Source of the DNA: Thuidium tamariscinum
Lineage: Eukaryota; Streptophyta; Bryopsida; Hypnales; Thuidiaceae
DNA: 64,000 nt
Assembly (NCBI GenBank): GCA_947034885.2
Contig: OX344749.2
Location: 8,819,501 to 8,883,500, forward strand
Direction of reading: 5' to 3'
The notes under the pieces are model-generated. The model worked only from the letters and a program-made list of their open reading frames with translations, did not search any database and was not told the origin of the DNA. Shown here piece by piece: positions 109-35,872 of the stretch. The number at the start of each line of letters is the position of its first letter. The stretch's first letter is position 1. Made by a program: the position numbers and the translations under genes.

Positions 109-152
109 ATCCCATAAGCGTTGCTGCATGCAGTTCCATTATGTGCCTATAA
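109..152 (+). promoter_or_regulatory. U5 snRNA promoter: USE-like element and TATA box
   Basis: ATCCCATAAGC at 109-119 resembles the plant snRNA upstream sequence element (consensus RTCCCACATCG) in its first six bases, and TATAA lies at 148-152. The element starts 75 bp and the TATA 36 bp before the inferred U5 start at 184. The same two distances recur at the U5 copies starting at 8918 and 10463, which supports a real promoter. Confidence 0.72.
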
Positions 153-183
153 GGTTCTCCAAACTCCCTCTTCTCCCTCACGC

Positions 184-301
184 AGCCGGGTGCTCAGCAC
201 AGAGCGGACTATTCTTTCGCCTTTTACTAAAGAATACCGTGCGCTGGGTACATTCACCGGCATACCCCTCTTTTTGGACTGCCCCTCACGGGGCCCATCA
301 A
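184..301 (+). ncRNA. U5 spliceosomal snRNA gene (copy 1)
   Basis: U5 is the snRNA of the U4/U6.U5 tri-snRNP that holds the exon ends during both splicing steps. The invariant loop I (CGCCTTTTACTAAAG, about 218-232) is intact and closed by the stem TATTCTTT/AAAGAATA. The 5' end AGCCGGGTG can pair with CACCGGC to form the basal stem. A U-rich Sm-type site (CTCTTTTTGG, about 269-278) is followed by a 3' hairpin, GCCCCTCACGGGGC. Start and end are inferred by comparison between copies in this window, so the ends may be off by a few bases. The promoter elements sit at -75 and -36. This copy looks functional. Confidence 0.9.
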
Positions 302-1186
302 TGCAAACACCGAAAATTGGACCAATGATCCCTCACTCGGTGTCACCTGCAGACAGATACAACGTGATATCATGAAGCTCTTGTGCATCAGAACAACATT
401 CCCTCAAAACTGAATGATAGTTTTCATCAGGCATCTTAGCTTATGGTCTATGTGCTCAATTCAATAAATGTGAGCATTAGACATTCTGATTTCTCACTTC
501 CAAAAGCATTCCGAACAGCAACATTGGACAAGGCTTTGTAAACTCAATTAGAGTCATGTGATGGCCTGGTTCACAGTGCATTATCTGATTTTCTCACCTG
601 CAATGAGAAACTGTACGTTGAAATGGAAGTGTTTCAATTACCACATTTCAAGAGCTGAATTCCATCGTCTACTTGATAGCTCAAACCACTCAAAGAATCT
701 GCCTCAAATTGACGAATTCCGACAAAGGAGAGGAACAGGGCGAACCATGATGAAATTGGTACCAGACCCAGCTGGAGGGTGCAATTTAAAGAACTAGAAC
801 CTAGTAGGTGGGGCGTAAAGAGAATCTGTATCTAAATGGAACGAGAATCCCACCATTCTCGCATCCGGTTTCTTCGTTGACCTCGGAAATTCTGAAACAA
901 AGCTCCTCTCTCAAAACTGTAGAGCTACTTTCCAAGCAACTGCACTTTCAACCTTACGCAAAGAAATCAACACCGCCTTCATAATTCACCAATTTTGATC
1001 AAGGGTGAATTAACGAGTCCTCGTCTAGCACTACAAGAAATTATAACCTCGGCAGGTACGGCTTTGCTGTCCGTTTCAGGAACTCGCCAATATATGATCA
1101 CAATTAAACAAGAAATGCTCCACAAATGATGTGATATCATCGCACTTGGGCTTGTACAAAAACTTCGGCCTTAAAAACATCTTGGA
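302..1186. other. Spacer between U5 copy 1 and the LPD 3' end
   Basis: I see no gene here. The right part probably holds the 3' UTR and polyadenylation region of the minus-strand dehydrogenase gene. The short open frames in it match nothing I recognise. A CACTACAAGAAA motif near 1029 resembles CACTA transposon ends but has no partner nearby. Confidence 0.5.
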
Positions 1187-4100
1187 TCAAACAGTTACCG
1201 GTTCAGCTGCCTTTTCTGACGGCACTGAGTGATCCTCAAGCTGCAACAAGTCAAAGCAGAAAGAGTTAGTTTGTTTAATAATTAGGGCACCACACGACCA
1301 TCCAGCAGCAGCTTATATAACGTCACTAAATTTGGCCAAGCTCAAACGCCACTACTTCCTAAAATGCACTGAATAGATGATAATAGGAGCATCCTTCAGT
1401 CCAACAGTCCCGTGTAAGAGAATTCCATTCCCTGTCTTTTCTGAAAGAGAATTACATGGGCAGACTTGAACAGCTCATCCAACACTTCAGACAAGGTGGG
1501 ATGGGCATGCACAGCAAATTTGATATCCTGAGAATTCAAGAGGCAACAGAACCGGGTAAGGATGACTTCTAATAGAAAAGGTAAGGATTCGGGTATCAAG
1601 AGAATGCAAAAGAACAAGAATAAAAGATTGCAAATTACAGTTATCTATGCTATTTTAAAAAAGAAAACCACATAGACAAGGAAATTTGCCTCCCCGGCAT
1701 GATTAAGAGGGCTTGTGAATTCTGTTTCTGACCTTGATTGTATTGCCCATAGCTATAGCATTTGAAGCTTCATGAATAAGGTCAGCGGCGTGGAGACCTA
1801 GTATATGAACTCCTAAGATCTCTCCAGTATCAGGTCGATATATCAACTGCCGACAACACAGTCTAAGCGTGAGTCCTTTACATTTCAAGACTGAAGCCTC
1901 GTGAACTTGAGACAACTTTCACAGAAAGTCTGATGACAATTTCATGCCTCTACAATCCTTGCATGAGGAAACCTTTCATACGATTCTGAATTTTTTCTGG
2001 CCGGTGCCTAAAAGAAAATTGCGACATCCTCACACCACTTGCAAACAACTCGAGCATATGACAACAAATCCTTCTATGATCGACCAATCTCAACATCATC
2101 ACTCAAGAAGCAATGAAAATGGAAAAAAAAGATACTACAAGATTTTGAGTTGTGTTACCTTGGCTAACCCGTCACCTTCATTCTCTGCAAGTGCTTTGGT
2201 GTTGGCTTTGAAGCTGGTCTTAGCAACGCTTACTTTAAAGGCCTCCTTCTCGGCTAGTGCTCTTGCTTGTGGCTGCCATTAATTACTCACGAGTCAAGCA
2301 TCTTACTTCCGTGAATATTAGATTTACTATCAATGAACTTCAAGTCTAATTTCCAACCGATCATTCAAAAAGCTTTAGAAATAATGCATACGGTACACCT
2401 TAAACAGTCGGCTTTGATGAAAGCGTCTTAAGAAAATTACCTCAGTAAGCCCCACCATGCTAATTTCTGGGTGCGTGAAACAAGCTGCAGGAACGCTGTT
2501 ATGGTTCAAAACATTGTCTCGCCCAGCGATCTGCTCAATAACTGTGGAAAAATCAATAACCCGATGAGAAAATCATGCGTTAAGATCATACAAACTTAGA
2601 GAATCAGCCTAACCCCCAAGGGCCAGGTTAAAATAGAAATTCGCTCCGAAAGCTAACAGTCCATGAAAGTAGCTTTGGAAGCGGCCACTCTTACTTAATT
2701 AGGGCATTGGGCACTCGGGAAAACAGAATAGCTCAATTCGGCATATTAGGTCCAGAACACTTGACCTTGAAAGCTACTTCAAGTCATTCAAGATGGATGC
2801 AGCAGAAGCCATGGACTAACCAGAAATGCCTTGAGCACTTGCCGCATGTGCCAGCATCATCTTGCCGTTGGCATCACCAATGCAATATAGGTTGGGAACC
2901 TGTATCATCAAAACAAACAAAGCACAAAATGTTTGATCTATGTTACTCAGAACGCAGCAAATGCCCCTTCAGTCACCCCTTTTTAAACATATATACGAGA
3001 ATAATTAAAAACACAAACGTCTTCGTACAACAATGTCCACTCACCTTGTTTCCTTCCGCATCTAACACTTGCATTCGCTCATCCACGGGTACAAAGCCCC
3101 TCTGTGTAACTATATTCAACTGCCAAATAAGAACACAGATGTGAATATGGTTTGACAGTTTACTAAAGACGCAGAATTGATGACATCACTCGCAATTAAG
3201 ATGCCCATGTTTCCCTATTAGGAAAGAATTTAATACAGCGCAGCACCTTTTCAAGACCCAAGCCTTTCGTAAAAGGAGAGCGCCCCGTAGCAATCAGCGC
3301 CGCATCCACCTGGAAGTCAGAAGGAACAATAGAAACATATTCGTGACTTAAAAACAGAACCAAAATTTAGAGCAGACATAAACCTAGAATGTGAAAAGTC
3401 AGTATCTAAATGAAACCCAGGTGAGGAGAGAAATTACCTCAAGAGTTTCCTTCACCTCCTTAGTCTTTGTGTCAACCAGTTCAATCTGAACTGGCTTTCC
3501 ATTCTTAGCTGGCGTGATCTATAATACAAAAACATCAATGAACATTATTTCTGAACTTGACCATGTCGTAATCTCTTACTAAAATTAATTCCCTCACCTG
3601 CAGAAAAATTATTGCTCACATCGCAAACACAAGTCTTTGAATAACTTTGAATAAACACACAAATTAAAATTATGCAGACTTCCAAGGAGATATCTCTTAA
3701 CATCGAAAATCCCTCACCTTCTTGGCCAAAACACCGACATGGTAGTCAATTTTTCGGGGATTGATCAAAATCCGCTGCGCAAGCTTGCCAATTTCAGGAT
3801 CAAACCCTGGCATCAAACCATCCAGCGCCTCGATGAACGTCACCTGTTGGTAACCCAAACTAGAAGTAAGCCCTCGGAAGGAACCAGATGGGAAGAAGCA
3901 CTCTTGAGCAAACTTATAATATGATCCTTACGTAGTAGTGATAGCATAAAAAGAAAAGAGATGCCGTCATGGAACCAGTACTAATTTTGAGTCCATGCTC
4001 TGCGACACACAATACTTACCTCGCTTCCAAGGGCTGTGTACACATCACTAAACTCTAGACCAATGTATCCGCTTCCTACTATCGCAATCCACTCTGGAAT

Positions 4101-6492
4101 CCACTCCAGCTTCAAAGCATGATCACTTGTGAAAACAGTCTTTCCTGCGTATTGAAGAGATGAGTGCTGTGGTCATTTACAAAATCAATGGTGAAGTTTT
4201 GTCCTTCAAGGAGTAGTGTAAACATATAAATTCTTCCATATTTTAAAGAAGCCTATACTGAGAACTACCAGAATTTGGGGGCCACGCACTGATAGCCACT
4301 CGTAATACTTAGCCAAAAGACCTAAGTTACATAACTCATTATAAAACGAACCTCAGCTTCGCACACTTCCATTAAAGAAACTTAAGATGCATTAGATGCA
4401 GCAACGACATCTAGAATACTTACCATCGATTTCAATCCCTGGAGGCACAAATGGGACTGATCCAGTGGCAATTATGATATTTTTTGCTGTGATGGTTCTG
4501 TCGGCAAATCCGATTCTACCATACTTCACAACTTGAGGAGCCTGTGCACAGGTCATGCCATAGATCATGTAGCAGTTAATCGTCCCGCCAGGGAAAAACT
4601 CCTCAAGGCATAAGAAACTATGCATTAACTGTAAAGGACAACCAGGCCCAAATTGATCCAACTGTTTTTTTAAAGCAGTCTAAAGTAGGTCATACAGAGA
4701 CTTGCTCTTGTCCAATGTTACTTACTATTTCACCAAAGCCTTCAGTGTTCTTAAGTGATTCTGGCGATATAAAATTTGGCCCCATCTGACTTCTCACAAT
4801 ATGATCAATTCAGTTGATTATTTTAAATCCATGGTCTCTTGGGAGGTAAAGTTCTAGGGTGTACTCCTGCTGATAGTCCTCTTGCGATGGACAAATAGAT
4901 CTAGACAAGAGCATTCGACATATTTGGTGTCTACTGCAGGAAACCACTATACAAAGCATCCAAATGAGAAAGAAAAACAGCACTCATACCACGACGGAAC
5001 CAACACCAGTCAGGATGTCGACCCCAATGGCCTTCATTGAGTTGGTCAGGTTCCCCCGAATCTTGGTGGCCAGGTTGTTAGCATGATCTGCAACTGCTTG
5101 CCTATCATATTCAGCGGCTGCTACCTGCATACAATTCACCTCAAAGTGTAAGGAAGTAGGACACTACAACTGAAGCTCCCAACGTATTCTTCAGGAAACT
5201 TCGCAGCCCATAAATTATTACAAACTAAGGCAAAAAGAGGTCGAAACGAAAACACTAAAACGAAAACAACCTAGAAAGATGGCCTGCATAATACTGTACA
5301 AAGTTCAAGAAATGAGAGATCAACCTGGATTCCAAGGGCCTTGAGATGATGCTCATCACGAAGCTCCCGCATACGTCCACTAACAGCTAAAAGTGCTTTG
5401 GACGGAACACATCCTCTGTTTACACACGTCCCTCCGACAACGTCTCCTTCGACGATTGCTGTCTTTAAACCCTGTGGATAAAAAAAAAACCATGCCAATT
5501 TCAGGAATCGGAGAACCGCGCATCCCAGGAAAGAGTCCTGATTGGCACCACCGGAAAAACTGGTGTACACCAATTAACATAAGGTTCGGGCCCTTATTGA
5601 ACTACATATCCAAAATTTCACTCAGTAGAAAGCTCAAACCAATGAAAACTGCCACAAGCTAAGATTCCATTCTTGCGAAGTGTGTGGGTTTAACCGTCTC
5701 GTGCAAGGAGCTAGGAAGGTCAGAAAAAGCATAGTCTTAAACATAGATTTGGAAAAGACACCCTAGTGACTTTCAAAATTCACAGCTGAATGACTACACC
5801 TCCAGAAATTAACGAAAAAACCAGCGTCGGCTTCCATTTCTTTTGGCGACTCCAAAGATTCAAAGTCAATTCTAATCATATGCAAGTAGGTCAGATCCTT
5901 ATTTGCACGGAGCTTACTTTAGGTAGCCAAAGGAATAGTAACTCTGTTCAATTCCCACCACTAACGCCAATTCAAAGGAGAGAATATTCTAACAGTAGAT
6001 TTCACCACAATCCTTACAACAGACAACACTGAGACACCCGCATTGGATTGCACTCGCGTTCAACCCAAAAGCATCTCCCAATTGATCACAAACCCATCAC
6101 CGAACCCACGAAACAATGAAACCAATCACAATGTAGAAAGCAATGCCAGCCACCTTCTCCACAGCGTGAAGTGCAGCGCCATGGCCGCCCACCCCCGCTC
6201 CAATAATCACCACATCATAATCAAACGCCTGCGGGGCGCCATTCGTCGCCGCAGATTCCACGTTCAATTGCCTGTTGCCCCTCTCTACCCTGCCCACTCT
6301 GGATGCCGCCAGCACGCGAGCCTGCGAGGATTTAGCACAGAAAAATCCCACACTGCTCTTCTTCTTCAACCCGGAATACGAAATGAGCGCCGGCACATAC
6401 GACGACGAAGAGGAGGAGGGAGTGGCCGCATAGGAGCTACAGTGCAATCGGACATTCTCCACTAATCCTCGGGACACCGCCATCACCTCCAT
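1187..6492 (-). CDS. LPD: Plastidial dihydrolipoamide dehydrogenase (E3 of pyruvate dehydrogenase), 15 coding exons
   Basis: Exons (complement, 5' to 3'): 6154-6492, 5325-5471, 4990-5124, 4424-4541, 4020-4144, 3718-3843, 3438-3518, 3247-3309, 3045-3119, 2821-2899, 2441-2541, 2159-2272, 1733-1846, 1456-1527, 1187-1240. All introns are GT-AG and the joined frame is open for 580 residues, close to the usual length of plastid forms. Residues 1 to about 85 are Ser/Ala/Arg-rich, like a transit peptide. The FAD motif GAGVGG is at 98-103, the redox disulfide is C129/C134 (GGTCVNRGC), the NAD motif is GSGYIG at 270-275, and the catalytic dyad is H548/E553 in HPTLSE. The enzyme reoxidises dihydrolipoyl groups of the plastid pyruvate dehydrogenase complex, feeding fatty acid synthesis. 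Family knowledge supports the plastid rather than the mitochondrial form, because the CVNRGC centre and this N terminus are of plastid type. The last exon (17 codons) rests on a good acceptor and a fitting stop. UTRs are not defined. No broken motif is seen. Confidence 0.95.
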
Positions 6493-8734
6493 CCTCGCTG
6501 AAATTGCAAATGCGTGCAGATGGCACCCACAGCTAGAGTTGGGGTTGCGAGTTACGGAGGTTTAGTAGTGAATGGTCGCTATGGCGACTACTTCGATGTT
6601 AACTTAGTTGGAATGACTACTTTGGCAGCGAAGCTTGAGCTGCGTGGGGGGCTTGTAAGACCAAGAGGATCAAGAGAATTGGATGAGAATGGATCAGCCT
6701 GCCCGTCATCATACTGTACTGGCGACCAGTGTGTTGCGACTGGTCGAAGTGCAGGAATTGGTCGCTTTCACGGAGCGAGGACGGCGAGCTCCGTAACTGA
6801 GTTTGGAGATACGAGCAAGTGTCACGACGAACGCTAACTTACATTGTAAGGGTTTGAGCATGGTTCCCATCATTGAATTTAAAAAAAAATTGGTGGATCT
6901 TGTTAATACTTCAAAGAAGATTTTAGTTTCTTTTTTTAATGCAATTTTTGGATGCTATATGAAGCAACTCTGAATTTTCAAAGTATTGAAAATAGGTGTA
7001 CACAAATTTGATCCTAAATTTTCATGTATGAAAGTTGTACATTTTTGGTAAGAGTGTAGATGGGACAAATTGGCAAATAAGTTACTTGTTACCTTAAGGC
7101 AAGTAAAGTAGGTTGTTATCAAATCAATTGTGATTCAATTCCTTCAAAATCTAAAAAGGCATGTTGTTGTAAAATGCCAATCTAATATTACTCAAAATCT
7201 CATAGTATAGGACATTCCAACATTAAGACACCTTGGACAATCATAGATTGGTAATCTATAATGAATGCATTTTGACAAAATTCTAGATCCACGCTAGATT
7301 TTACAACAACTAACATTATATTCTTTTTTCCATACCTTAACTTTTCAAAGGAGCAAAATAATGGGGAAGAGACTCAACCCATTCATATAAAACCTCATAA
7401 AAATACTAAAACCTATTCTCTGTTATTCATCAAAAATGCTAATTTTGTATTTGTGTTTGAAATCAAAAATCCCCAATTAGGTAGAAGAGTCATTGAATAA
7501 AGAATTATGCATTTTACAATTTAGAGACTAGGTTTTAATTTGGAGACTTAGATGGGTCTTTAAATCCAGTGTATAGGTTGGTTCATCCAAATTCAAAATT
7601 ATACCTTCAAGATTAAGAGATTAATACAATTTTACTATATTTTCTTCCAAATTCAATCTTTTGTTGTGATGGAGGTCATTTTATCCCTCTCAAACTCTCA
7701 AAGTTATGATGTATCTCTTCAGTGTGAACACTAGTAAAAAAGGATGTTTTGACACCCAAGCTTGGTGCCAAAAGCTTAGTGCCTATATAGATTTATAGCA
7801 CGAAGTTTTGATACAATAATATAGTACTATAAGTTTGCAATTGATTTTCTATTGGTGAAGAGAATCCTAAAACATCAATATTGATGTAATATGTATATTA
7901 CATTTGTACATTAGTATACATCTTATAGCAAGGTAATATTTAGTATAAATCACTTTAATTGGACTTCAAATTAAGTACTACTTGTTCTTGTTTAATAAAT
8001 TGAAACTTTTGAAAGGTTATAGGAGAATGAATGTTAGTTAAAAAGTGTTGAATTAAAATTGTAAACTTTATAATAATCAATAACTATGACTAGTAACAAG
8101 AGCTTATCAAGAACTAATCAACATTAAAGGACTAAAGCTATGCAAACACCACTAAAGTAATTTTTGTATATGGTAGTTATACTAATTATTTTGTAGTATC
8201 TTTGTTTTTGGAGGACCAAAATTGTCATTAATATTTAAGAGTGTAAGAATCCAAGTATTATGATAAGTGTAGATCTTAGGTTCTAATATATATTGAAATT
8301 GAAATCAAATAATAAAATCACTTTAAGAACTAAATCACAATAATAATAATAATAATAATAATAATATAGTGATAGTAGCTCCTCCCCAAATTTTGTTACA
8401 CAACAATATAGATCATTCCTTCTTTCTATTGTTCTTTTATACAAGCTTCCTAAATGATTATCAATTTGATGGAGTAGGCTTGTTCAAACATTCATCATTA
8501 ACTTGTTGTATAGATAGTGGAACATTGAAGGGCTAACTAGAAGCTAGATAATCAAATAGTATGTACTTCTAACTTGGTGTCAAGAGTAGTGATAACTAAG
8601 ATCTTGAAATTGAATTTGGACAAAGCTTTGGACTAGATTCATTGTGCTAACACCACTCCTAACACCAAGTGTTTACTGGCATACAAACTACTAATATCTA
8701 CGGTGTAATTCTTGCATTTATAATAGCAATGCAC
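6493..8734. other. LPD promoter side and AT-rich spacer
   Basis: About the first 350 bases are of mixed composition and should contain the 5' UTR and promoter of the minus-strand dehydrogenase gene. I could not place a TATA box with confidence. From about 6850 on the DNA is AT-rich with no convincing coding or RNA gene. Confidence 0.55.
8341..8366. repeat. (TAA)n microsatellite
   Basis: About eight perfect TAA units lie in the AT-rich spacer. Confidence 0.95.
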
Positions 8735-8842
8735 AACACATTCCTGAAGGTGATGGAATGAGCAAGTTGTGATCGATGGAGAAGGATTCCCCAAGCTAAA
8801 GTGGGCAATAGGTTATGCAAGAAGTAGGTGTGGGCCTCTATT

Positions 8843-8886
8843 ATCCCATAAGCATTGCTGCACGTAGTTCCATTATGTGTCTATAA
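8843..8886 (+). promoter_or_regulatory. U5 snRNA promoter (copy 2)
   Basis: ATCCCATAAGC at 8843-8853 is 75 bp before the start of U5 copy 2, and TATAA at 8882-8886 is 36 bp before it. Both sequence and spacing match copy 1. Confidence 0.72.
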
Positions 8887-8917
8887 GATTCTCCAAACTC
8901 CTTCTTCTCCCTCACGC

Positions 8918-9035
8918 AGCCGAGTGCTTAGCACAAAGCGAACTATTCTTTCGCCTTTTACTAAAGAATACCGTGCGCTGGGTACACTCACCGGCATACC
9001 CCTCTTTTTGGACTACCCCTCATGGGGCCCATCAA
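8918..9035 (+). ncRNA. U5 spliceosomal snRNA gene (copy 2)
   Basis: The invariant loop I CGCCTTTTACTAAAG, the TATTCTTT/AAAGAATA stem, the Sm-like CTCTTTTTGG and the 3' hairpin CCCCTCATGGGG are all intact. Differences from copy 1 are mostly in the basal stem (CCGAGTGCTTAGC), which weakens one pair, and in positions that keep pairing. The promoter is conserved. It is probably functional. It lies 768 bp (start to start) before a U1 gene on the same strand. Confidence 0.87.
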
Positions 9036-9616: not shown

Positions 9617-9627
9617 GTCCCGTAGCT
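9617..9627 (+). promoter_or_regulatory. USE-like element of the 9686 U1 gene
   Basis: GTCCCGTAGCT starts 69 bp before the U1 5' end. The two other U1 genes have GTCCCATAGCT 68 bp upstream. A convincing TATA box was not found. Confidence 0.6.
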
Positions 9628-9685
9628 TTCGGTGGCTCATGGGGCTGTCTCAACCCGTAAAGAAGGCCATCGTTCGTTACTCCAA

Positions 9686-9847
9686 ACACTTACCTGGGTG
9701 GGGTCTATCCACGATCCGGAAGGTGGATGGCCTAGAGCAACCGTCTCCATTGCACTCGGGACATGGGAGTTCCAGTACCTTCCTACGGGAGGTATACGCG
9801 TCATAATTTGTGGCAGCGGGGGGCATGCGTTCGCGCGGCTCTCACCC
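9686..9847 (+). ncRNA. U1 spliceosomal snRNA gene, divergent type
   Basis: U1 recognises the 5' splice site. The 5' end reads ACACTTACCTGGG (canonical ATACTTACCTG, one change at nucleotide 2). Stem-loop II keeps the U1A-type binding loop CCATTGCACTC. The Sm site ATAATTTGTGG (about 9803-9813) is intact, and the terminal stem-loop has the typical GCGTTCGCGC tip. Length is about 162, as expected. Loop I reads GATCCGGAAGG against the usual GATCAYGAAGG. It differs from the other two U1 genes at many positions, mostly in a way that keeps stems paired, so it is an old, probably functional variant. Confidence 0.88.
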
Positions 9848-10387
9848 AACTGAAAATCCAACACTGGAATCACAGAGAACTCGTGAAAACACCGTTCTGA
9901 GGTCTCACGTACTGCAATGTCCTCATCCATCCCAAAACCTACCACAAACCCTAAGCTGATTTTTTGGAAATGAACCTCACTTCAATTGTACGCAAGGGTG
10001 AACTCGGCACGGTTGGATTGACACCCGAGTGTAATGCTTTGTTGATTGAAGTACTTGCTCGATCGGACAGCTGAAAGAACGAATCGCTATGTCTTAGCAG
10101 CGATTTTAGGAGTCACCGAATAGATCATGCCACTGCCTCGAAAATGTGGGTGTTGTAAGGTAAAGTTCGGGCTACTCTAACTGCATTGGCGTGCAATTAA
10201 ATGTTGCAACGGCCTGAAAGTGATAATGCCAATGCAGTGCATTCAATATTCTTATGGGGATGCCCTGCGTAAGTTGTGACGGATAGAGGGATATGCCAAA
10301 GAGGGAAATTTATACACGTCGGAGACTTCAAGCTCATTTGCGGTGAGGTAGGTGTAGTCCGCATGAGGATGGGATAGGTCTCCATTT
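9848..10387. other. Spacer between U1 (9686) and U5-like (10463)
   Basis: No gene is seen. Parts of this spacer (about 10090-10160 and 10229-10330) resemble the spacer between the 12076 U1 and the 13018 U5 pseudogene, indicating that a U1-spacer-U5 cassette was duplicated as a unit. Confidence 0.6.
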
Positions 10388-10431
10388 ATCTCATACGCGC
10401 TGCTGTACGCAGTTACACTCTTCCTGTATAA
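10388..10431 (+). promoter_or_regulatory. Promoter of the 10463 U5-like gene
   Basis: ATCTCATACGC (10388-10398) is 75 bp and TATAA (10427-10431) 36 bp before the inferred start. The geometry is kept, but the element has lost the CCC run. Confidence 0.55.
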
Positions 10432-10462
10432 GTTTCTGCATACACGCACCTCTATCATTCAA

Positions 10463-10580
10463 AGCTTGGTGCTCAGCACAGAGCGAACTATTCATTCGCC
10501 TCTTACTAAAGAACATCGCTCGCTGGGCACACTAACAGGCATACCCGAGTTTTTGGACTGCCCCTCCAGCGGCCGTCAGT
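10463..10580 (+). pseudogene. U5 snRNA variant or pseudogene (copy 3)
   Basis: The overall U5 layout is present, but loop I reads CGCCTCTTACTAAAG, with a U-to-C change inside the normally invariant uridine run. The AAAGAATACC arm is AAAGAACATC, and the 3' hairpin (CCCCTCCAGCGGCC) is partly unpaired. The Sm-like stretch is GAGTTTTTGG. Substitutions in both the loop and the stems suggest decay, though expression from the recognisable promoter cannot be excluded. Confidence 0.75.
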
Positions 10581-10753
10581 ATGAATTGCTAAGCTGGATC
10601 ACTGAAAGGTTCCCTTGTACGTATTGAATGGATTGCGAAGGTGTTCTACGAGATGATTCGAATGTTAGTGAACCCTCGCCTCGACTCTCAGCCAAGGCTA
10701 GTCCAATCAGGGTTAAATCTGCACGATGTTGAGTAGCGCACGGTACAATTACT

Positions 10754-10780
10754 GCCATACCCCATCAAGGGGCCCATCAA
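10754..10780 (+). pseudogene. Fragment of a U5 3' end
   Basis: GCCATACCCC followed by AAGGGGCCCATCAA matches the 3' end of U5 with the Sm site missing. It lies about 170 bp after copy 3 and has no loop I. It is a short relic. Confidence 0.5.
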
Positions 10781-12007
10781 TGTTACTTGCGGAAGTGGAC
10801 CGACTGAGGGATTTCTCTTGGGACTTCTCGGAAACCTCCGGCAATACTGTGGCATTAAGCTGGTCTCAACTACGGTCAGCGACATGTTTACCAGTCTAGG
10901 ATTTGTGTATTTGGACGGATGTTAAAAGAATGCTGTTGCAATGGTAACGCCAGCTGATTTTCTCGCCAGCCTTGAGTCGATAAAATAAATTGATGATTTT
11001 GGATTACAAGACCGGCGTTTGGAAAAGTGCTAATCGCTTGGAGTACATGAAGATGTGTGAGATTGAAGCAGCTTCAGTCGGTGAGATTGAAGTCCTTTCC
11101 AGGTAAGAACTGCAGTTTTGTAATTAGAGTCGGTATGCAATTGAATTTCCTGATTTTAGCGCATCGAGAGTTAACACGCCTAGTTTAACAAAAATCTCTT
11201 CTTGCTATATCCGTTGCGTGCTGCAAAATAGTTTTTTTGGTGTTTTTCCTTTGACCATTTAAAACTAAATTTATAATTTCATATTCAATTCCTAGGCATT
11301 GAACCCCTATGAACTGCACATAAATTCCTTCCCTGCTTATGGCAGTGGATGAGATTTGTGCGCAACTTAATCAAAATCTTGTAGAATTTTAGCGGTGGAG
11401 TTGTTCCACTCAATGTTACCAATCAATTCAAACATGGCTAGGAAGTTCACCCTGCTTTTCAAGTTTGTTTACAACACAACGTGAAATTTTAACTCCACTA
11501 GTCTAATTGCAACCATACAAATCTGAAATGTATTTTGGAGTTCTCCAAAGTTGTTAGAGGCATGTCCAATCTAATGTGTTTTATAATCCCAAGAAGATTG
11601 AATAAGTTGATGAGACTCAAATTTTGCTTTGGTGAAGAGTTAAGAGTTTCAGTACCCAAGTGAAGTGAAGACCGCTGAGATTGCAAATCCGCCCCCACCT
11701 CCTCCTGATCTCCCAAAGCCATGGAAGACCGCTGGCCGGGGGCCAATGGCAACTTCTGATGACATTGTATTGTAGGCAATTGCTCAGACACGAGGAAAGA
11801 AAAGACGATGGCCATGGAATGGAGCTAGGAGCTTGAAATTCACTGAAATGGGTAAGTATAAACTGTGGCACACCTAGAATACTTAGACGGACTTGTGAAC
11901 CAGACTGATCAGATCCATGCTAGTGTATGCCTGTTTTGATTATTCTTGATGAGCCTTTCAGAGCACGAAGACCTGGCAATCCTCAGGCACAGGATCTGAA
12001 ACTAAAT
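10781..12007. other. Spacer before the 12076 U1 gene
   Basis: Mixed-composition spacer. The short open frames on the minus strand (about 11498-11871) match nothing recognised. No RNA gene is seen. Confidence 0.4.
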
Positions 12008-12018
12008 GTCCCATAGCT
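12008..12018 (+). promoter_or_regulatory. USE-like element of the 12076 U1 gene
   Basis: GTCCCATAGCT starts 68 bp before the U1 5' end, identical in sequence and distance to the element before the U1 at 23715. No clear TATA box lies near -30. Confidence 0.65.
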
Positions 12019-12075
12019 TTAGGAGTCTCAAACGATGGCCCAGCCCTTCAAGTACTCCTGGTTGCGAGGCAAGAG

Positions 12076-12236
12076 ATACTTACCTGGGCGGGGTCGATCC
12101 ATTATCCTGGAGGTGGATGGCCTAGGGGAGCCTGCCCCATTGCACTTCGGGCCGGGTGACTGTAGTATCTTCCCACGGGAGGCATACACGTCATAATTTG
12201 TGGCAGCGGGGGCTCGCGTTCGCGCGGCCCCCACCC
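12076..12236 (+). ncRNA. U1 spliceosomal snRNA gene
   Basis: The canonical 5' end ATACTTACCTGGG, stem-loop II loop CCATTGCACTT, Sm site ATAATTTGTGG (about 12193-12203) and terminal stem-loop with GCGTTCGCGC are all present at full length (161). Loop I is ATCCTGGAGG, unlike the usual U1-70K binding loop ATCAYGAAGG, and this change is shared with the 23715 copy. With its promoter (from about 12005) it is nearly identical to 23645-23875, so one is a recent duplicate of the other. Confidence 0.92.
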
Positions 12237-12567
12237 AAATCAAAACCCAAAACAGAATTTTTAATGTGGAGTTTCGGAGAAAACAAGTTCCTCATCTACA
12301 GGCATAATATCATTGCTTGTGTTTCAGCGCGTTAAATGGTGTTACTGAAAATCATGCAGTGGCTCGGTGGACGGTTGCACAACTTCGAATCCGAACTAGC
12401 CGGCCGAGCATTTGTATGGTGAACAAGTAATAGTCTCCTTTGATGCATGAATTAATTACTCTGACAGATTAGCAGATCGCAATGCTAGGTACCCCATTGA
12501 CTTCAGGATCGACCGAAAATACAGGTCATGTCACCGCCTCACAAAATATATTTTGGGAAGGTCTTTA

Positions 12568-12698
12568 GAGCATCCCCATGCCTGCTCTTCAAAGCAACAC
12601 TTCAAACATTTTGGACCACTGATCTTCCTTGTCAGAGAAAGATCAGTGGTCCAGAATGTTTGAAGTGTGGCATTTGAAGAGCAGGCATGAGGATGCTC
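12568..12698. mobile_element. Tourist-like hairpin MITE with TTA target duplication
   Basis: Two arms of about 60 bp pair almost perfectly around a loop near 12626-12637. Ends GAGCATCC/GGATGCTC are flanked by TTA on both sides (12565-12567, 12699-12701), the pattern of PIF/Harbinger Tourist-like elements. It lies between the 12076 U1 and the 13018 U5 pseudogene. A long near-perfect hairpin could also be processed into small RNA. Confidence 0.75.
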
Positions 12699-12934
12699 TT
12701 AGTGAAGTTGGAGGTAGTTCAAATTTCGAGTTTTGCATCGGCCTGCAATGCAATGGACTACATATTCTCAAGGGGATGGAGTGTGCAAGGTGTGACGGAT
12801 AGAGTTACGCCACAGGGAGAAACATATGCAGGTGAGAGACCAGCAGCCATAGCAATTGGGGGTCACGCTCATGATCGAGCGGTATACGAGATTCGGGCTG
12901 CCTGAGAATACATGGAGTATAGCTAGCTCCGCTG

Positions 12935-13141
12935 AGCCCATACGTGTTGCTGCACTCAGTCACACTCTACCTGTATGAAGCATATCCAGCATGCTCTTCA
13001 ACTCGGAAACCGTCTCTCGGCCGGGTGCTCAGGCCATTGCCAACTACGCTTCGGCCTGTTTTTAATGAGTATCTAACGCTGGTTACACTCGCTGGCATAT
13101 CCCATTTTCTAGGCATGCCTCTCTCGATCGGGGTTCATCAC
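12935..13141 (+). pseudogene. U5 pseudogene (copy 4) with decayed promoter
   Basis: The promoter relic AGCCCATACGT (12935) and TATGA (12974) precede a U5-like sequence starting near 13018. The start-site distance is about 8-10 bp longer than in the other copies. CCGGGTGCTCAG is recognisable, but loop I has become CTTCGGCCTGTTTTTAATGAG-like and the Sm region reads CCCATTTTCTAGG. Upstream DNA (12745-12930) aligns with 10229-10380, so the whole block is a cassette copy. It is not expected to give functional U5. Confidence 0.75.
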
Positions 13142-13521
13142 TCAAATCACAAAACAGGACGGATGGGTGTAGTGAGCATTCTGGAAAAGAAAGAGTGGTT
13201 GAGTGGCACTGGACAGACTCGGCGTGATTCCCAACCCGGACTTGGTGAATTTTGGGTTATGTCTGCACTCTGACCTGACCTCCATTTTGCAGCATTTGCA
13301 GCAGGCCTAGCTTCCGCACGAATGAACAACGATCACGCAATGTCCCATGAGCATGTCGTGTTGTGTTTGTGACTTGAAAAGAGACTCCAAGATGCCATTG
13401 AGTCTCCAGCAGTTATTCAGGTGTCAAAGCGTTTTGACATGAAAGCAAGGTCCCTGACCACAATCTTGACTATAGATTTCCAGTTTGATTTCACGCTAAC
13501 CAACATTTATTTGATATTGTA
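13142..13521. other. Spacer after the U5 pseudogene at 13018
   Basis: I see no gene, RNA or clear repeat in this stretch. Confidence 0.4.
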
Positions 13522-13523
13522 TA

Positions 13524-14589
13524 AGGTAGGTACACCCAAAAGCGCCATGTTCTTAAAAGCGCCATCTACAGTGCACATACATTTCCGAAATCAGTCATGT
13601 TCACAGACTGTAGATGGTGCTTTCAGGAACAGACTTTGACTGTTAACCGCTAACTTATATAGTCGATCTAAAATTTCAGGCCCATATCTGAATGGGCAGT
13701 TAAATTCCTGTGCCCATTTTATAAAAAAATTTGGGCAGTTTTAAGAATTAACTATTGAAAACTTTCATTTTTCACTGAAAAAAGTACATATTTGATTATT
13801 GAGAGGTCTTCAAAGGCATACATGTACTATAAGTGAAGTGTAAAGCTTGCCAATTTTACTTCATTTCCTAGCTTTATACAATTTCACTTAATTTGAGATC
13901 TAAAAAATTGTACATATCCATTTGTTTTGAGAATGGTCCCAATGGAAAGAGGAAAGTGTTTTCATGATATTCACCATTGAAAATTTAAACATACAACTAT
14001 TTACTTGGAGTTATTTGCAATTTCAACTTATAAAAATAATTGCATTTCAACAATTGCAAGGTGGATTGTGTAATGAATTTAATAACTTTTCATGTGAAAT
14101 TAAGTTTTTTTGAAGTGCATTTTAGTGTGCTAACACTTTTTGTAGTTGTTCATGTCACCTCAAATCCCCAAAAGCATTTATATGCAAATTTGAGAAACAT
14201 CGTGGGAAAAGGCAGCATACTAAATATAGAAAATGTACTCTTCTCTCGTTATAATCTCACAACTCCAATGTAGTTTTATGCTCAAAATTTGTGTACTTAC
14301 TAATAAACAAGCTCTTTAAACATCTATGCGGTTAGATTTTGAAAAAAAATCAATTTGCTTCACTAGGGATGACTACAAGTCCATACACTTTATTCATAGT
14401 CAAAACACACTTGAAAAGGCTTGGGCATTTAGGGGTTAATAACTTTTGCATATGGTATCCAAATCCTGTTTTCTTTGGTGCGTTGGAACATGCTTTCACT
14501 TGCCAACAAGACTACATAAAAATTTGAACTAATTAATAGCAGGAACTAGGCTCAGTATGCATAAGCAGCGCTTTTGGGTGTACCTACCT
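13524..14589 (+). mobile_element. TA-MITE family copy 1 (interrupted)
   Basis: Terminal inverted repeats AGGTAGGTACACCC/GGGTGTACCTACCT are flanked by TA on both sides. Without the 789-bp nested element and one TTAA copy its length is 273, the same as the copies at 52450 and 56439. The left part folds through GCGCCATCTACAG and its inverse. TA duplication suggests Tc1/mariner-type mobilisation (inference). No coding capacity. Confidence 0.9.
13647..14435. mobile_element. TTAA-flanked (piggyBac-like) element nested in TA-MITE copy 1
   Basis: The 789-bp insert is flanked by TTAA (13643-13646, 14436-14439), and removing it with one TTAA restores the host MITE exactly as in the uninterrupted copies. 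Its ends CCGCTAA/TTAGGGG are short imperfect inverted repeats. No transposase frame is seen. TTAA target choice with exact duplication fits piggyBac-type transposition. Confidence 0.82.
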
Positions 14590-15012
14590 TACAGTACTCA
14601 AAAGCCGAAGAGAATTATTGCATGAATTTATCGGTTGTAACCACTAAAAGCAGTCTGTGCTTTTGCCAGAAATTTGCCATGCTATCACTGCTATGGCATG
14701 TGATTTCTTAATCTCTTTTGAGAGGTTACTTCAATTTTTATAAAGATTTGAGAGTTTGCATGCCCAGCTTAATGTGCTGCATAATACATGTTGCTTTCAT
14801 ACAGCTTTTGAAGGTCGCTTTGCTTCTGAATGCCAAAAGCCGTGAGTCTTGATGTGAAAGAAGTTCTACAAAGCTTTGGAATTCAGTATGCATAAGGGAG
14901 GAGGCTCAGAAACCGCTCATTTAAGAGCTGATCGCCCTTTTTCATGTATTTTTTTTTATGCAAATATTTTGAATTTATTTTTTTTGTCAAAGAAAAATAT
15001 TCTAGGAATCTA

Positions 15013-18100: not shown

Positions 18101-19559
18101 TTAGGTGTGCAAAGCATTTGGTTTTAATGTAGGATAGAGTTTTTCTTTGCACATACTCAAACCTTATGCTTTCTCCCCAACTTTCTCATATTGATCTTTG
18201 GACTTTTATTAACACTAAAAAAATGTGTCTCTCACTACATATTTGATATTCAAAATCCTTTTCTCAATGCTTTTATATTGTCACTCTTTGAAAATGAAGA
18301 TTTTGAACCTATCTCTTAAAAATGAAATCATAAGTCTTCTTTGAGTCAAATGAATTTTTGGTATTTTTATAAAAATTTGAAACCACCATGAAATTTTGCT
18401 TTAAAAAAATAAAACAAATTAATAATAAATATAGTGTAAAAAATATGCATAGAATTTTTGAAATTATTTCTACAAATGTTAAATATGATATAGGACATTA
18501 TATAATGTACCAAAGTTTTGTAATATTCTATAATAAAAAAATCAATAGATTATGGTTATTGGTCTGTGGTTATTGGTCCAAAGTTCCAATTGCAATAAAA
18601 AATTCCTTTTTAGGAACTTTTCACATTTTCAAATTGGAGTAGAAACTAATCTTGATATACTTCATTTCATTAGTTCTCCTCAAATTCATGAAAGATCACT
18701 TTCAAATGGTTAGAATTCTAATCAAGACTAAAAAGCTATATATTGCCAAATTTAATAAAAAATATCATATTAATAATATTATATAAAAAACTTGATATAA
18801 GGTTAGCATGCTTTTTTCTATCAATCATCCAATGATGCCACCTACAAGATGTTTTCATTTCCATACTTCAACACTCCTTTAGCATGAAGATCATACACTC
18901 ATCGAAGTGAACTTTAAAAAATAATGGAAAAGTTATTTTTTGCTATAATAGCTTTAATCTAAATGATAATAACATTTGTCAAACTTTGCAATCTTTATAA
19001 AATGTATGAGCTTCCAAACAAATTCTTTGAGGTACCTAAGCATTGAATTCATTGAGTAAAAGCCATATTTACTTTGTTCAAAAAATATATCTCACAAGAA
19101 ATTATTCATTGAATACTATCACTAAAGTTGTACACACATCTTCATACCATTGTATACTTAGATAATGGTCCTCCCATGTTAAGAAGGTATAATTTCTTTC
19201 TAAATGTCTAAGGGACTTATTAGTTGATGCAAAGATTGGAAGTTGTTGAGGAACTAGCCAAGAATCGAGTCCTCTTTTCAAAGATGCGAAAGGACCAATA
19301 ACAAAGTTATTATATCTCCAAAGTAGTGAACCAATGTTTAAGGAGAATTGCTAGCTGGTGGAATTGGAGAAAAAATTGGTTGAAATTTGAAAACTTTGGA
19401 AAAAAATTGGTAAAGAAATCTATAAATTTTCTATTTAGAGTAAAAACTACTGGAAAAAACCAGGCTCGATTCTTGAAAAAAAGGTTCAAAATGAGAATTA
19501 AAGAAAAATAGCTGATAAAACTCAAAAAAATATCCCGAAAGCTGTACTGAACCCAGTCG
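15129..19559. other. AT-rich spacer, no gene recognised
   Basis: The sequence is strongly AT-rich with poly-A/T runs. Open frames such as 18388-18642 are short and built of AT-rich codons. I see no domain, RNA gene or intact transposon. Confidence 0.5.
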
Positions 19560-21250
19560 TTGGAAATCAATTTACCCAGTTCTCACGGAGGGCCTCATTA
19601 TTTAATTCCACCACGCGGATACGCAACAACAATAGTTTATGCAAACCGCGTCCGCCCTCATAACCGCGTCGTTTCTGGCAGCCCCGGCCGTTCACCTTTT
19701 CCGTCGCGAAGACGGCGAACGACGATTTACGGACGACCGCGGACGGGCGACCGCGGCACAGGTCATCCATCTGTACCTGTACAAGAAGCCCTATAGGCTT
19801 CAGTCTCGTTTCGTCTCCAGAGATTTGCAATTGGGGCGCCTTTGTCAATTCTTGCTTGCGAGCGTCCAGTGCGGTACGCCGTTGCTTCCAGTCAACTTAT
19901 ATGTGTCTCGTGTTCATCTCCTCGGTAGTCCGTCAATTGTGAACTTTTCTTCTTGCATTGCAAACTCTTTCCTCAATGGGTGGTTAGGATTTCCAGTCAT
20001 ATACGTGTTGGATTGATTGAAACCTGTTCTAGGGTGATGCTTTAGTCATATACGTGTTGGAGTTGGGTTTCCAAAGCGCGGCCTGTCTTTGTTGATTTGA
20101 CCTTGCCGTTGTTGTGGTGCTTTCCGAGTCCTGCTTTGGTTTCGCTGACCTTTTCGGTGGTCTTGCATTGACAGTCTTGTATTGACAGGGTCGCCAGAGT
20201 TCCCCTTTTTTTTGGTTCGTTTTGGCAATCGGAAGCGGGTGCCGTTGTTGCTCTTGAGATGCCCCTCTCGTTTCGTGCTTCGTGGAACTCTGAGGCGTTC
20301 CATGACTGCAACACCTTCACATTACTTGTCGTGAGGAGGAGTTACGACAGTATCGACTGGTGGGAGGATCGGGAGGAGAGCAGCCAGAACTGGAGTTCCT
20401 GTGGCTGCCGAAGCTCTGATCCTCTGTAGCAGTGAAGAACGTGCCTTCGCAATGGCACAGATCAGGTCGTTGATGGAGCTGGCGGATCTGGGGTTTGTGA
20501 TCGCGTTCCGCTTCTATGGGCGCTACCCAGAGACTGGGCGCACGTTTTACCACCCTCCGTCGTGTGAGAGCGATCGCAGCCCTACCGAAGTTCCCACGAC
20601 GGATACACATCCTGCTGGCAGAAGATTGTCGCCCGCGAGACGCCCGGGGTTGGCGGTGGCAACTTCTCTGATGATGCCAAGTTTTTCAGCCACAAGTTTG
20701 TCGGTTCTTTTCTCCAGTGGAACTCAAGAGGATTTGGGTCAGCTCCCTTTTACTTGATCTGTTTTATCAATACAACACAGCTTTGCCGTTCTCTTTAGTA
20801 ACCAATGGCCAGAGCCAGACAATGTTCCAAGTAAAACAATACCCAGAGCATTTTGTAGCAATGTCATCACTCACACTTGTTGTGAGGCTGTGCTCGGCAA
20901 GAACATGTGAGCGTTCGTAAGACTTAGTTTAGGATTGATTGATAGTGATGCTTTGTTAACTTTTTATTATAATGTCGTATCCGCTTGCTATGGTTAACAT
21001 ATTATTGACATCACTGCTTTGTGTTTTCTTTTTGCTGCTTCAGACGGAGTGCTTCCATCACCCGCGCCTCAGAACGTAGGGGCTCACTGACGTGCTCGCC
21101 GTCAGCCTTAGGAGCATCCATTTTTGCTGTTCTTCTCGTCAAAGAGCAATTGAAGTTTAGGAAATTGTAACTGTCGGAGACACCATCCGGCGTTTACGCA
21201 GATTTCTGTTTTATCATTTGCCGGAAAACTGGAAAAGAAAAGAAGAAAAG
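19560..21250. other. GC-richer island, possible unrecognised gene or pseudogene
   Basis: Composition changes sharply from the AT-rich flanks. An open frame of 125 codons at 19639-20016 (+) and others at 20401-20757 (+) overlap frames on the other strand, and none shows a domain I know. In a second + frame, about 20560-20760 reads as plausible protein (for example CWQKIVARETPGVGGGNF). A direct repeat AGTCATATACGTGTTGGA occurs at about 19995 and 20044. This could be a transcribed gene with introns, a decayed gene or a non-coding RNA locus. I assign no function. Confidence 0.35.
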
Positions 21251-22697
21251 AGAAAAAAAAGTCTCAAGCCGCAGACAAAATTGAACAAAACCCTTGACTC
21301 AAACTCGGGACATTACAGAAGACGATAAGCACCCTTACTCCCGCAGCAATAATCTCAGGGGCGTGTGTATCCTTTAATTCAGTATGCGTAGAGATAGATC
21401 AACGAACAGTCATCCGTGTTTTTCTGAAGGACCGGGGGACCAACTTCAGTCTTAAGTTTTATAAGCAGCTTCGAGTAGGTCAGATGAGGACTTCCGTTTC
21501 TTGATGTCATTTCTTTATTGACCAGAGCATGCAGTGTCTTTTTCACGGATGTTTGTGTGATTGACTTTGGTCCCGTTTGAACTGTATCTTCCACGAAATG
21601 CCCAATTGAATATGGCATTTTCCAACCATGAATCCTGGGTCCTTCAAAACTATGGTATTTTATCACGCTTTTTTTTCCGACTATCTCTTCTCAATAATTT
21701 ATTGTCTTCAATTATACGGAAAGCTTTGTCAGTGTTAGAAGCATCGTCTTGTCTCTGATTGGGAATGTTGAAAAGACCTGAAAGGCACTGTACAGTAATG
21801 TGCAAAGTGAATTCCATGGTTCCAAGAATGATTGTTGCCAGAGTGCACATCATCAGTATTCATTCAATCATGCTTGAACTCCTCGCCATTGTTCTAGACT
21901 TGTGCTATCCTGATTCTTCTATCTCCACCATTCTCTTCATTTCAATCTAGCCTGTAATCAATTATGGAGTCAATTCTACACGCGAGTGTCAAAACATTCT
22001 TGAGTTTCCCTTCAGACTATACTCAGATGAATGTATTTGTGCACAAAGAAAGCTATATTGTACAAAAAGATATGTTCTTTGTTCTTTCAAGGTATATTCA
22101 GTCTATCCTAGCAGTTCAATTGATTGTTCTTAAATCCTCCCCAAAATTGTTGTCACTTCTATCTACACTTCTCTCCCTTGTTGTAATGGATATGCACAAG
22201 CTTGCGCATGATTTCTTCCCACAAAGATGGTCTTCGACAGTACGAAGCTTTTAAATAAATCGGAAATCATCTTTGCCAGGGTAACTAGAAAAGGTTTAGG
22301 TACTATATGTTTGTGCTGAAACAAGTTAGAATTCTGAATCTTAATTTTTCCAATTTAGCAATCACTTTCTCATATATCAATCACATTGAAATACCGATGA
22401 GCCCTGGAACCTCATCAGAATTACCACTGGGTTTTCGAGCCTCTGCCATTTCGCTCATTTACACTTGAGATCCATGTTTGCTCTGGGGTTTGACTCTAAG
22501 TACGGTATGTGTAGTCTAAAGTACATGTTGTCACAATTACAGAGAAATGATGTTTCAATTCTTAATGTAGCTAATTATCGACATTGCCAGTGCAGCTTTT
22601 AAAGGTGTAGCTTACTTACCACTGTGTTGCTACTGCTGGGCGTCTAGGCCGCCCACACTAGTGAAATGATGGTTAGGGTAAAGCCTCGATGTAACTT
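21251..22697. other. Spacer before the 22773 U5, nothing recognised
   Basis: Several 60-95 codon open frames occur on both strands, mutually overlapping and without recognisable domains. Confidence 0.4.
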
Positions 22698-22742
22698 ACC
22701 CCACATGCCTTGCTGCACGCTGTTACAATCTGTGTGGATAAT
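22698..22742 (+). promoter_or_regulatory. Promoter of the 22773 U5
   Basis: ACCCCACATGC at 22698-22708 is the closest match in the window to the plant USE consensus RTCCCACATCG, and it starts exactly 75 bp before the inferred U5 start. The TATA position carries GGATAATT (about 22736-22743), a weak match. Confidence 0.65.
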
Positions 22743-22772
22743 TTTCTGCGTACTCTCTCACTAGTCGCATCG

Positions 22773-22889
22773 AACCGGGTGCTCAGCACAGAGCGAACTA
22801 TGCTTTCGCCTTTTACTAAAGAATACCGTGCGCTGGGCACACTCTCCGGCATACCTATTTCTTAGACTGTCCCTCGAGGGGCCCATCAA
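22773..22889 (+). ncRNA. U5 spliceosomal snRNA variant (copy 5)
   Basis: Loop I CGCCTTTTACTAAAG is intact, and the 3' hairpin (CCCTCGAGGG) is perfectly paired. Two features are odd. The stem below loop I has a T-to-G change (ATGCTTT against AAAGAAT), and the Sm-like site is ATTTCTTAG in place of CTCTTTTTGG, which may weaken Sm ring assembly. The promoter spacing is kept. It may be expressed but be unstable, or be in early decay. Confidence 0.78.
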
Positions 22890-23646
22890 TGCAAATTGGC
22901 AAACCGGACGAGTCTGGAGTATTACTTGTGAGACTGTAATGGAGACTATCGTGATGATCTAGAAGTGCAAACCGGTTCGAGTTTAGCACAGCGCTCCTCG
23001 AATTTCAGGTTGTCGTCGTTACCTCTTGTGGCACAGCCAAATTCAATCACGGAAGAGATCATGCCGAAATGATGCTGCGGCGGTGGTACCGCTGGTCTGG
23101 TTTACATACCAGCCCCGATTTTGCTGAAAGTGTTGATGATCCTAGAAAGCATATTGATTTCTCCAAATGAAGCCGATTTAATATTGATTCCCACATCGGC
23201 ACTTGCATTGATAATTCTAAAGTTGCTAACAATCACCAGTCTATGTCCTGGTTACATTAATTTCAAGCATTATCAATGACTCATAAACTTCAGATCCTTG
23301 GGGGCCAGTGAATGCCACTTTGTTGAAGAGTGTTAAGAGTTCATCCCCTGAGTACGTTTGCTGCTCATGATTATCTACTCGATTGTGTTTTGACCTTTCA
23401 AATAATTCATCGAGCGGATAACCCAGACTTGATCTCGGTGTAGCCCTTCGATGTGCGAAACAGGCGTGATCTCAGTGTAGTTTGACAAGTGCCTCAGTGC
23501 TCTAGTGGTAGACCATCGTGCTGTTGTATTTGCTGTCACAAGCTTGTAAAGGATTGCTACACAAAGGTATGTTCACAAGAGTTGCGATTTCTGTGTAATA
23601 TGCAAAATGTAGTATTAACAGGGCAGTGATTTCCCTCTGGTGAGAT
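22890..23646. other. Spacer between U5 (22773) and U1 (23715)
   Basis: No gene is seen. A tRNA A-box-like string near 23508-23524 lacks a B box and cloverleaf. Confidence 0.45.
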
Positions 23647-23657
23647 GTCCCATAGCT
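23647..23657 (+). promoter_or_regulatory. USE-like element of the 23715 U1 gene
   Basis: GTCCCATAGCT is 68 bp before the U1 5' end, identical to the element at 12008. Confidence 0.65.
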
Positions 23658-23714
23658 TTAGGAGTCTCAAACGATGGCCCAGCCCTTCAAGTACTCCTGA
23701 TTGCGAGGCAAGAG

Positions 23715-23875
23715 ATACTTACCTGGGCGGGGTCGATCCATTATCCTGGAGGTGGATGGCCTAGAGGAGCCTGCCCCATTGCACTTCGGGCCGGGTGACT
23801 GTAGTATCTTCCCACGGGAGGCATACACGTCATAATTTGTGGCAGCGGGGGCTCGCGTTCGCGCGGCCCCCACCC
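23715..23875 (+). ncRNA. U1 spliceosomal snRNA gene (near-identical duplicate)
   Basis: It has the same length and nearly the same sequence as 12076-12236, with the canonical 5' end ATACTTACCTGGG, loop II CCATTGCACTT, Sm site ATAATTTGTGG and terminal loop intact. Near-identity begins about 70 bp upstream (about 23645) and ends soon after the RNA, defining a recent ~230-bp duplication that carries promoter and gene. It shares the unusual loop I ATCCTGGAGG. Confidence 0.92.
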
Positions 23876-24159
23876 AAATCGAAACCCTAATTTGGAAATC
23901 ATTTAGGAAGGGGTAGTTTCACTGAAACAAGATTGTTCGAGTGGACAGACAAGTCACTGGAAGTGACGGAGAAGACGAACGAAGTGGTCGTCCCAACTTA
24001 CGGTTAAATAAATACGAATTTGGAGCCCGACCTCCGATTTCGACAATTCGAGCTCCGGTTGCTCGAATTCGTGGGCATGATGGGAAACTGACGTAGTAGA
24101 ACATCAGTCAATAACGTGGCACAAGGTTTAGGCAGTCTGATCATGAACATGACTCTGCT

Positions 24160-24250
24160 TGGGCCATACGCTTTATTAAAGAATGCCTCGTACTGAGTAC
24201 ACTCCGGCATACCCCAGTTTCTGCATGGACTCCCTGACGGAGCTCCATGA
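24160..24250 (+). pseudogene. U5 remnant (copy 6)
   Basis: GCTTTATTAAAGAATGCC followed by GAGTACACTCCGGCATACCCC matches the loop I to basal-stem part of U5. The 5' half is gone, loop I is altered and the Sm stretch is interrupted. It sits about 445 bp after the start of the 23715 U1, in the same U1-then-U5 order as the other cassettes. Confidence 0.65.
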
Positions 24251-35870: not shown

Positions 35871-35872
35871 TA

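Follow-up and report, generated by a model that had tools for sequence, protein, structure and literature searches.

The question of how a mixed cluster of U5 and U1 small nuclear RNA (snRNA) genes is assembled, and how its members are controlled, is raised by a 64,000-nucleotide stretch of the genome of Thuidium tamariscinum (GenBank assembly GCA_947034885.2, contig OX344749.2, positions 8,819,501 to 8,883,500 of the forward strand; referred to as the window, with positions counted from its first base). The cluster lies in the first part of this window, and it is very probably a nuclear birth-and-death cluster of snRNA genes, which has grown by DNA-level duplication and by gene conversion or compact duplication, followed by decay. 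What sets it apart most is the promoter element of the U5 and U1 copies.

The window was searched for U1 and U5 genes with Infernal and Rfam 15 (the gathering score of the U1 model, RF00003, being 69.5 bits). Seven matches exceed the gathering score, three full-length ones of U1 (RF00003) and four of U5 (RF00020), all on the + strand within 184–23873 and none of another family. No further U1 or U5 is found in the window when these models are relaxed to E ≤ 1, and no tRNA is found in it by ARAGORN. BLAST, with the Rfam-passing genes as queries, reveals two more sequences: around 13019 a diverged U5, and around 24172 a fragment. A U5 nucleotide profile (nhmmer) built from the five longer U5 copies of the window, for which the 13019 copy is in-sample, recovers its five training copies and, out of sample, the segments 24152–24260 (E 1.8e-10) and 10732–10802 (E 3.5e-5), and a U1 profile made in the same way from the window finds nothing beyond the three known U1 genes. 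The U5-like loci are seven in total (U5a to U5g), four of which (U5a, U5b, U5c and U5d) reach the RF00020 gathering score; U5e, U5f and U5g are below it and are classed as decayed relatives. Along the + strand the order is U5, U5, U1, U5, (fragment), U1, U5, U5, U1, U5.

An earlier note on this DNA had described six U5-type loci, three U1 loci and a U5 3' fragment on one strand, in the order U5, U5, U1, U5, U1, U5, U5, U1, U5, starting at 109, and proposed a check with Infernal and the Rfam models. All these loci are real and their order is confirmed. Seven of the nine pass Rfam; the other two, which are unmatched even at E ≤ 1, are degenerate but real, as shown by BLAST identity of 68–74% (13019–13131) and by the U5 profile (24152–24260). 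The 3' fragment, which follows the third U5, is the segment 10732–10802, and it is at position 109 that the promoter element of the first U5 begins. The depth ascribed to the arrangement overstates the number of working genes, because several U5 copies are decayed.

The preservation of the copies, all on the + strand, is described here by the number of standard base pairs kept out of the Rfam pairs (30 for U5 and 45 for U1) and by the fold z-score relative to 200 shuffles. The best-preserved U5 gene is U5a (184–296), which scores 87.1 bits, keeps 27/30 pairs and has a fold z of −3.5. U5b (8918–9030; 80.1 bits, 25/30 pairs) is 93.8% identical to U5a. The loop I sequence GCCUUUUAC is present in U5a, U5b and U5d, and a uridine-rich Sm site is present in U5a and U5b (CUUUUUGG) and in U5c (GUUUUUGG). 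In U5d (22773–22884; 76.4 bits, 26/30 pairs) the Sm site is atypical (AUUUCUUAG), and U5c (10463–10576; 51.8 bits, 22/30 pairs) is a doubtful gene, having an altered loop I (GCCUCUUAC) and broken pairs. U5e (13019–13131) is a degenerate U5 and a probable pseudogene, without an Rfam match at E ≤ 1, with a broken loop I, an atypical Sm site, 17/30 pairs and a fold z at chance level (−0.45); its identity with the other U5 copies is that given above. U5f (24152–24260) is a U5 remnant that has lost its 5' part, and U5g (10732–10802) is a 3'-end remnant. At least one U5 copy, U5e, is decayed, and two further copies, U5c and U5d, look compromised.

The U1 genes are U1a (9686–9845; 100.4 bits, 37/45 pairs), U1b (12076–12234; 115.5 bits, 40/45 pairs) and U1c (23715–23873; 116.7 bits, 40/45 pairs). 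All three have the 5' splice-site-pairing sequence ACUUACCUG, the AUUGCAC loop, an Sm site and the 3' hairpin; the 5' end of U1a is ACAC in place of AUAC (one change, at position 2), and U1b and U1c also keep AAUUUGUGG and the 3' stem. A pairing between the 5' end and an internal segment, predicted for U1b and U1c, was dropped, the cost of leaving the 5' end free being 3.6 and 0 kcal/mol, respectively (3.2 kcal/mol for U1a).

A trace of how the cluster has grown is found between the genes. The spacer between U1a and U5c (9876–10380) aligns over its full length with the spacer between U1b and U5e (12265–12930), once a miniature inverted-repeat transposable element (MITE) is removed from the latter, with z 8.8 (10.4 in a repeat run) compared with a maximum of 2.62 for 60 unrelated real segments of the window. 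The best local match is a block of 97 columns with 73% identity and 64 bits (maximum 35.4 bits in 40 shuffles), located on the + strand at 10230–10326 in the first spacer and at 12746–12840 in the second, and beginning 385 nt past U1a and, with the MITE removed, 379 nt past U1b. The MITE-like palindrome itself (12567–12699, + strand) has the ends AGAGCATCC and GGATGCTCT and is 90% self-complementary by gapped BLAST and 54% ungapped. The U1-to-U5 start distances of 777 and about 942 nt on which the earlier note had based its proposal of a duplicated U5/U1 cassette are measured as 777 (9686 to 10463) and 943 nt (12076 to 13019); the length difference is indeed due to the MITE, which by the new boundaries is 133 bp long, as compared with the 131 bp claimed. 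The duplication of one U1-U5 cassette, giving the U1a-U5c and U1b-U5e pairs, is well supported.

The genes record further events. U1b and U1c are 98.5% identical over the promoter and 99.4% over the gene, and 98% over the unit from the upstream sequence element (USE) to just past the gene, with sharp bounds at both ends: immediately before the USE the identity is down to 39.5%, and beyond the 3' signal to 50%. U1a shares 48.5% identity with these two copies over the promoter and ~80% over the gene. The gene and spacer histories disagree, because U1b has a spacer akin to that of U1a and not to that of U1c, yet shares 98% identity with U1c over the gene unit. This is the outcome that gene conversion would produce, and the pattern of identity points to gene conversion, or to compact duplication of the functional unit alone, as the probable source of the U1b/U1c likeness. 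U5a and U5b are 92–94% identical over the gene, the promoter and the flank as far as the window start, with a drop within ~25 nt after the gene; this is a separate, second event, the unit of which (upstream flank and gene) is unlike the cassette. For all other U5 pairs the promoter identity is 49–64%.

The canonical plant USE is RTCCCACATCG (PMC9845283). It is present in none of the eight full-length units, where the best match has 3–5 mismatches. Instead, an RTCCCAYA-like core is found in all eight, being exact in U5a, U5b, U1b and U1c and having one mismatch in the other four; it lies at −75 in U5a to U5d, at −84 in U5e and at −68/−69 in the U1 genes. The USE-like sequences of the U1 genes are GTCCCGTAGCT in U1a (9617–9627) and GTCCCATAGCT in both U1b (12008–12018) and U1c (23647–23657). 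In the U5 promoters, the USE-like sequence is combined with a TATA-like element: ATCCCATAAGC with TATAAG in U5a (109–119 and 148–153, spanning 109–153) and in U5b (8843–8887), and ATCTCATACGC with TATAAG in U5c (10388–10432). In these three genes TATAAG is at −36, exactly 39 nt past the start of the core, as counted from start to start. Matches to TATAAG with two mismatches occur at the same 39-nt offset in U5d, where ACCCCACATGC is combined with the weak TATA-like GATAAT (22698–22742), in U5e, where a promoter relic has AGCCCATACGT and TATGAA (12935–12979), and in U1b and U1c; the two-mismatch match of U1a is elsewhere. All these elements are on the + strand.

In flowering plants, the USE–TATA distance decides between transcription by RNA polymerase II (Pol II) and RNA polymerase III (Pol III) (PMC9841428, PMC9845283), and the spacing of the Pol II class is four helical turns (PMC9845283). 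The 39-nt spacing of U5, start to start, corresponds to ~3.7 helical turns, with the proviso that the published base pair convention may count differently. The Arabidopsis USE–TATA gap is ~23–24 nt for Pol III and 33–34 nt for Pol II, and next to these Pol II values the 39-nt spacing looks short. Transcription of U5 by Pol III, as suggested by this short-looking spacing, is not adopted: U5a, U5b and U5c have TTTTT inside the gene, which is expected to stop Pol III, and for this reason the Pol II reading is kept for U5.

It is possible that this lineage has shifted its snRNA promoter code, such that an element resembling RTCCCAYA is used at a constant distance, the TATA element is kept in U5 and lost or degenerate in U1, and the USE and spacing rule of flowering plants fails as stated, and that gene conversion, confined to the unit from promoter to 3' signal, maintains the likeness of the linked U1 and U5 units. 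This combined interpretation is tentative and is held with considerable doubt. Species-specific USE sequences are known (PMC12133305). Several observations weigh against the main reading of a birth-and-death cluster of Pol II units. The RTCCCAYA motif was derived from the same sequences, and the eight copies amount to just two independent groups, U5 and U1, so that its chance rates in 45-nt stretches drawn at random from the window (0.003 for an exact match, 0.045 for at most one mismatch) are optimistic; as the copies are paralogues, the informative part is the sharing of the motif across U5 and U1. A convincing TATA element is absent from the U1 promoters, in which the best match has two mismatches, like those of U5d and U5e; 73% of 27-nt stretches taken at random contain a match as good or better. 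The activity of dicot Pol III promoters is abolished by single changes of the USE (PMC12268498); by this rule the promoters described here should be dead, unless the rule differs. All 14 Arabidopsis U5 genes have a USE and a TATA box (PMC545797). The published plant 3' box pattern, CA(N)3-10AGTNNAA (PMC5079582), is matched in all eight units only with 1–2 mismatches, this being the best of many placements. In the folding test, U5a is the only copy to surpass all 200 shuffles (z −1.97, −1.62 and −1.43 for U5b, U5d and U5c, respectively), and no branch of the U5 tree is strongly supported, the best values being 86/92 for U5a-U5b and 82/88 for U5e-U5f. The first loop of U1 differs from the Rfam consensus GAUCAaGAAG in 2 of 10 letters in U1a (GAUCCGGAAG) and in 4 of 10 in U1b and U1c (UAUCCUGGAG), although this loop is a consensus feature which is not defining alone, and the departures may be normal for this lineage.

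Related promoter sequences are also observed away from these genes. A scan for further promoters gives one match, on the minus strand at 46382–46338: an orphan promoter-like pair (ATCCCATATGC and TATAAG) with the exact motif and the U5-type 39-nt spacing. It lies near AT-rich tandem repeats and has no recognisable RNA downstream, and at least one such motif pair occurs in 2 of 300 shuffles of the 26–64 kb region. On the + strand, TTCCCACATCG at 23188–23198, inside the spacer between U5d and U1c, differs from the canonical plant USE by a single mismatch, and there is no Rfam match between it and U1c.

Other explanations of the cluster can be weighed with these data. Had a single U5-U1(-U5) cassette been copied again and again as a block to give the whole array, this would account for the U5-like sequences that flank each U1 on either side, and for the homologous U1-U5 spacer pair. 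The shared spacer homology predicted by the earlier note is found for one of the 15 spacer pairs and its cassette duplication holds for that pair, but it is not general to the array: the other 14 pairs have z < 3 in the first run, and no second local match exceeds the shuffled maximum of 35.4 bits, the next best having 34.0 bits. A few spacer pairs are at or slightly above the edge of the controls and are unexplained (S4-S6, z 2.9 and 4.0 in two runs; S1-S6, 2.4 and 2.5) or borderline (S6-S3, 2.4; S1-S3, 2.3), one of 40 real segments having reached 2.4 versus S1. The combination in U1b of a U1a-like spacer with a gene unit shared with U1c also does not fit with general block duplication, and U5c and U5d, the U5 copies preceding U1b and U1c, are no nearer to each other (81.1% over the gene) than to other copies. 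General block duplication is considered unlikely, its odds being lowered by the 14 spacer pairs with z < 3.

It is also conceivable, if quite unlikely, that the cluster is largely a graveyard, in which most or all copies are silent pseudogenes, with the principal U1 and U5 genes elsewhere in the genome. The clear decay of U5e, U5f and U5g, the changed loop I and broken pairs of U5c, the atypical Sm site of U5d, the departure of the first U1 loop from its consensus and that of the USE from the flowering-plant form would all agree with this. However, U5a retains loop I, the Sm site and most of its pairs, and folds well beyond its shuffles; U1b and U1c retain the 5' splice-site sequence, the AUUGCAC loop, AAUUUGUGG and the 3' stem; and the promoter motif is common to U5 and U1. 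It is highly improbable that snRNA retrocopies, inserted independently of one another, have come to lie together by chance. Multi-copy snRNA families do give dispersed pseudogenes, but RNA-mediated retroposition is unlikely because all eight full-length copies keep the promoter element. Moreover, all seven Rfam matches are on one strand, and the homologous spacer pair refutes a retrocopy origin for the cassette pair; with promoters retained and spacer homology present, this explanation is rejected.

For the birth-and-death cluster, the following history can be proposed. Each full-length copy would be its own Pol II unit, in which a putatively lineage-specific, RTCCCAYA-like element and, in U5, a TATA-like element would precede the RNA, and a short signal for 3' processing would follow it. 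One U1-U5 cassette would have been duplicated to give U1a-U5c and U1b-U5e, and U5a and U5b would have arisen in a separate duplication. Gene conversion or compact duplication may then have made U1b and U1c alike from the promoter element to the 3' signal, and some copies would later have decayed. The working copies are most likely U5a, U5b, U1b and U1c, and perhaps U1a and U5d, and would supply U1 and U5 RNA to the spliceosome.

In plants, linkage between snRNA genes of more than one type has been documented before. Seven U1-U4 clusters and a single U2-U5 cluster are described in Arabidopsis, together with U2 and U5 copies in tandem (PMC545797). These clusters resemble the present one in having two linked snRNA types, several copies, some of them pseudogenes, and a duplicated pair inferred as their origin. 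The Arabidopsis pairs are U1-U4 and U2-U5, with 180–300 or <200 nt between the genes (PMC545797), whereas here U1 and U5 are linked on one strand, with spacers of a few hundred nucleotides to kilobases and a non-canonical USE. In Euglena gracilis, twelve U3-U5 arrangements are described (PMC2784804), in which U5 again neighbours a small RNA gene of another kind time after time, the variants being attributed to locus duplication; this is a distant protist, however, and its U3 genes have convergent U5 genes, unlike the U1 and U5 genes on one strand here. Multi-copy U1 and U5 isoforms without stable orthology, U5 being the most diverse, are likewise seen in Drosophila and mouse (PMC4291461), but these are animal genes, and no U1-U5 cassette is described in the excerpt of that paper. 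No plant U1-U5 cluster is found among the matches listed in the openly licensed PubMed Central literature, as represented by titles and the opening lines of abstracts.

Mixed snRNA clusters as such being known, the cluster described here documents U1-U5 linkage in an early-diverging land plant, in addition to the U1-U4 and U2-U5 linkage of Arabidopsis. Better-preserved and decayed copies can be told apart, and the locus provides a small natural case of snRNA gene duplication, decay and homogenisation. If the divergent promoter element is true and general in the lineage, small RNA genes in genomes of this kind, or promoters usable for Pol II or Pol III transcription, would be overlooked by searches that rely on the flowering-plant consensus.

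The remaining features of the window are protein-coding and repetitive. A Pfam scan of 20 open reading frames of the window gives only two matches above the curated cut-off, other matches being below it. One is a single-exon protein (37047–38381, + strand) of the PF14476 family (Chloroplast_duf, 'petal formation-expressed'; E 3e-76), whose best named relatives among the best 120 of 157 matches are Sphagnum proteins, at 53–56% identity, followed by Selaginella at 44%, other sequences reaching 77%; this protein places the host in the land plants, and probably among the bryophytes. The other is one exon of a pyridine-nucleotide reductase, the exons of which lie on the minus strand at ~6561–1399, between U5a and U5b; one of its four pieces is above the Pfam cut-off, two are matched below it and one is unmatched. 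From its motif we take this reductase to be a plastid dihydrolipoyl dehydrogenase. The snRNA part (1–24500) has 39.5% GC, compared with 31.7% in 24500–64000, and a dispersed repeat, whose copies are mostly 83–96% alike, occurs in both orientations at 13503–14591, 35653–35889, 52447–52724 and 56437–56732.

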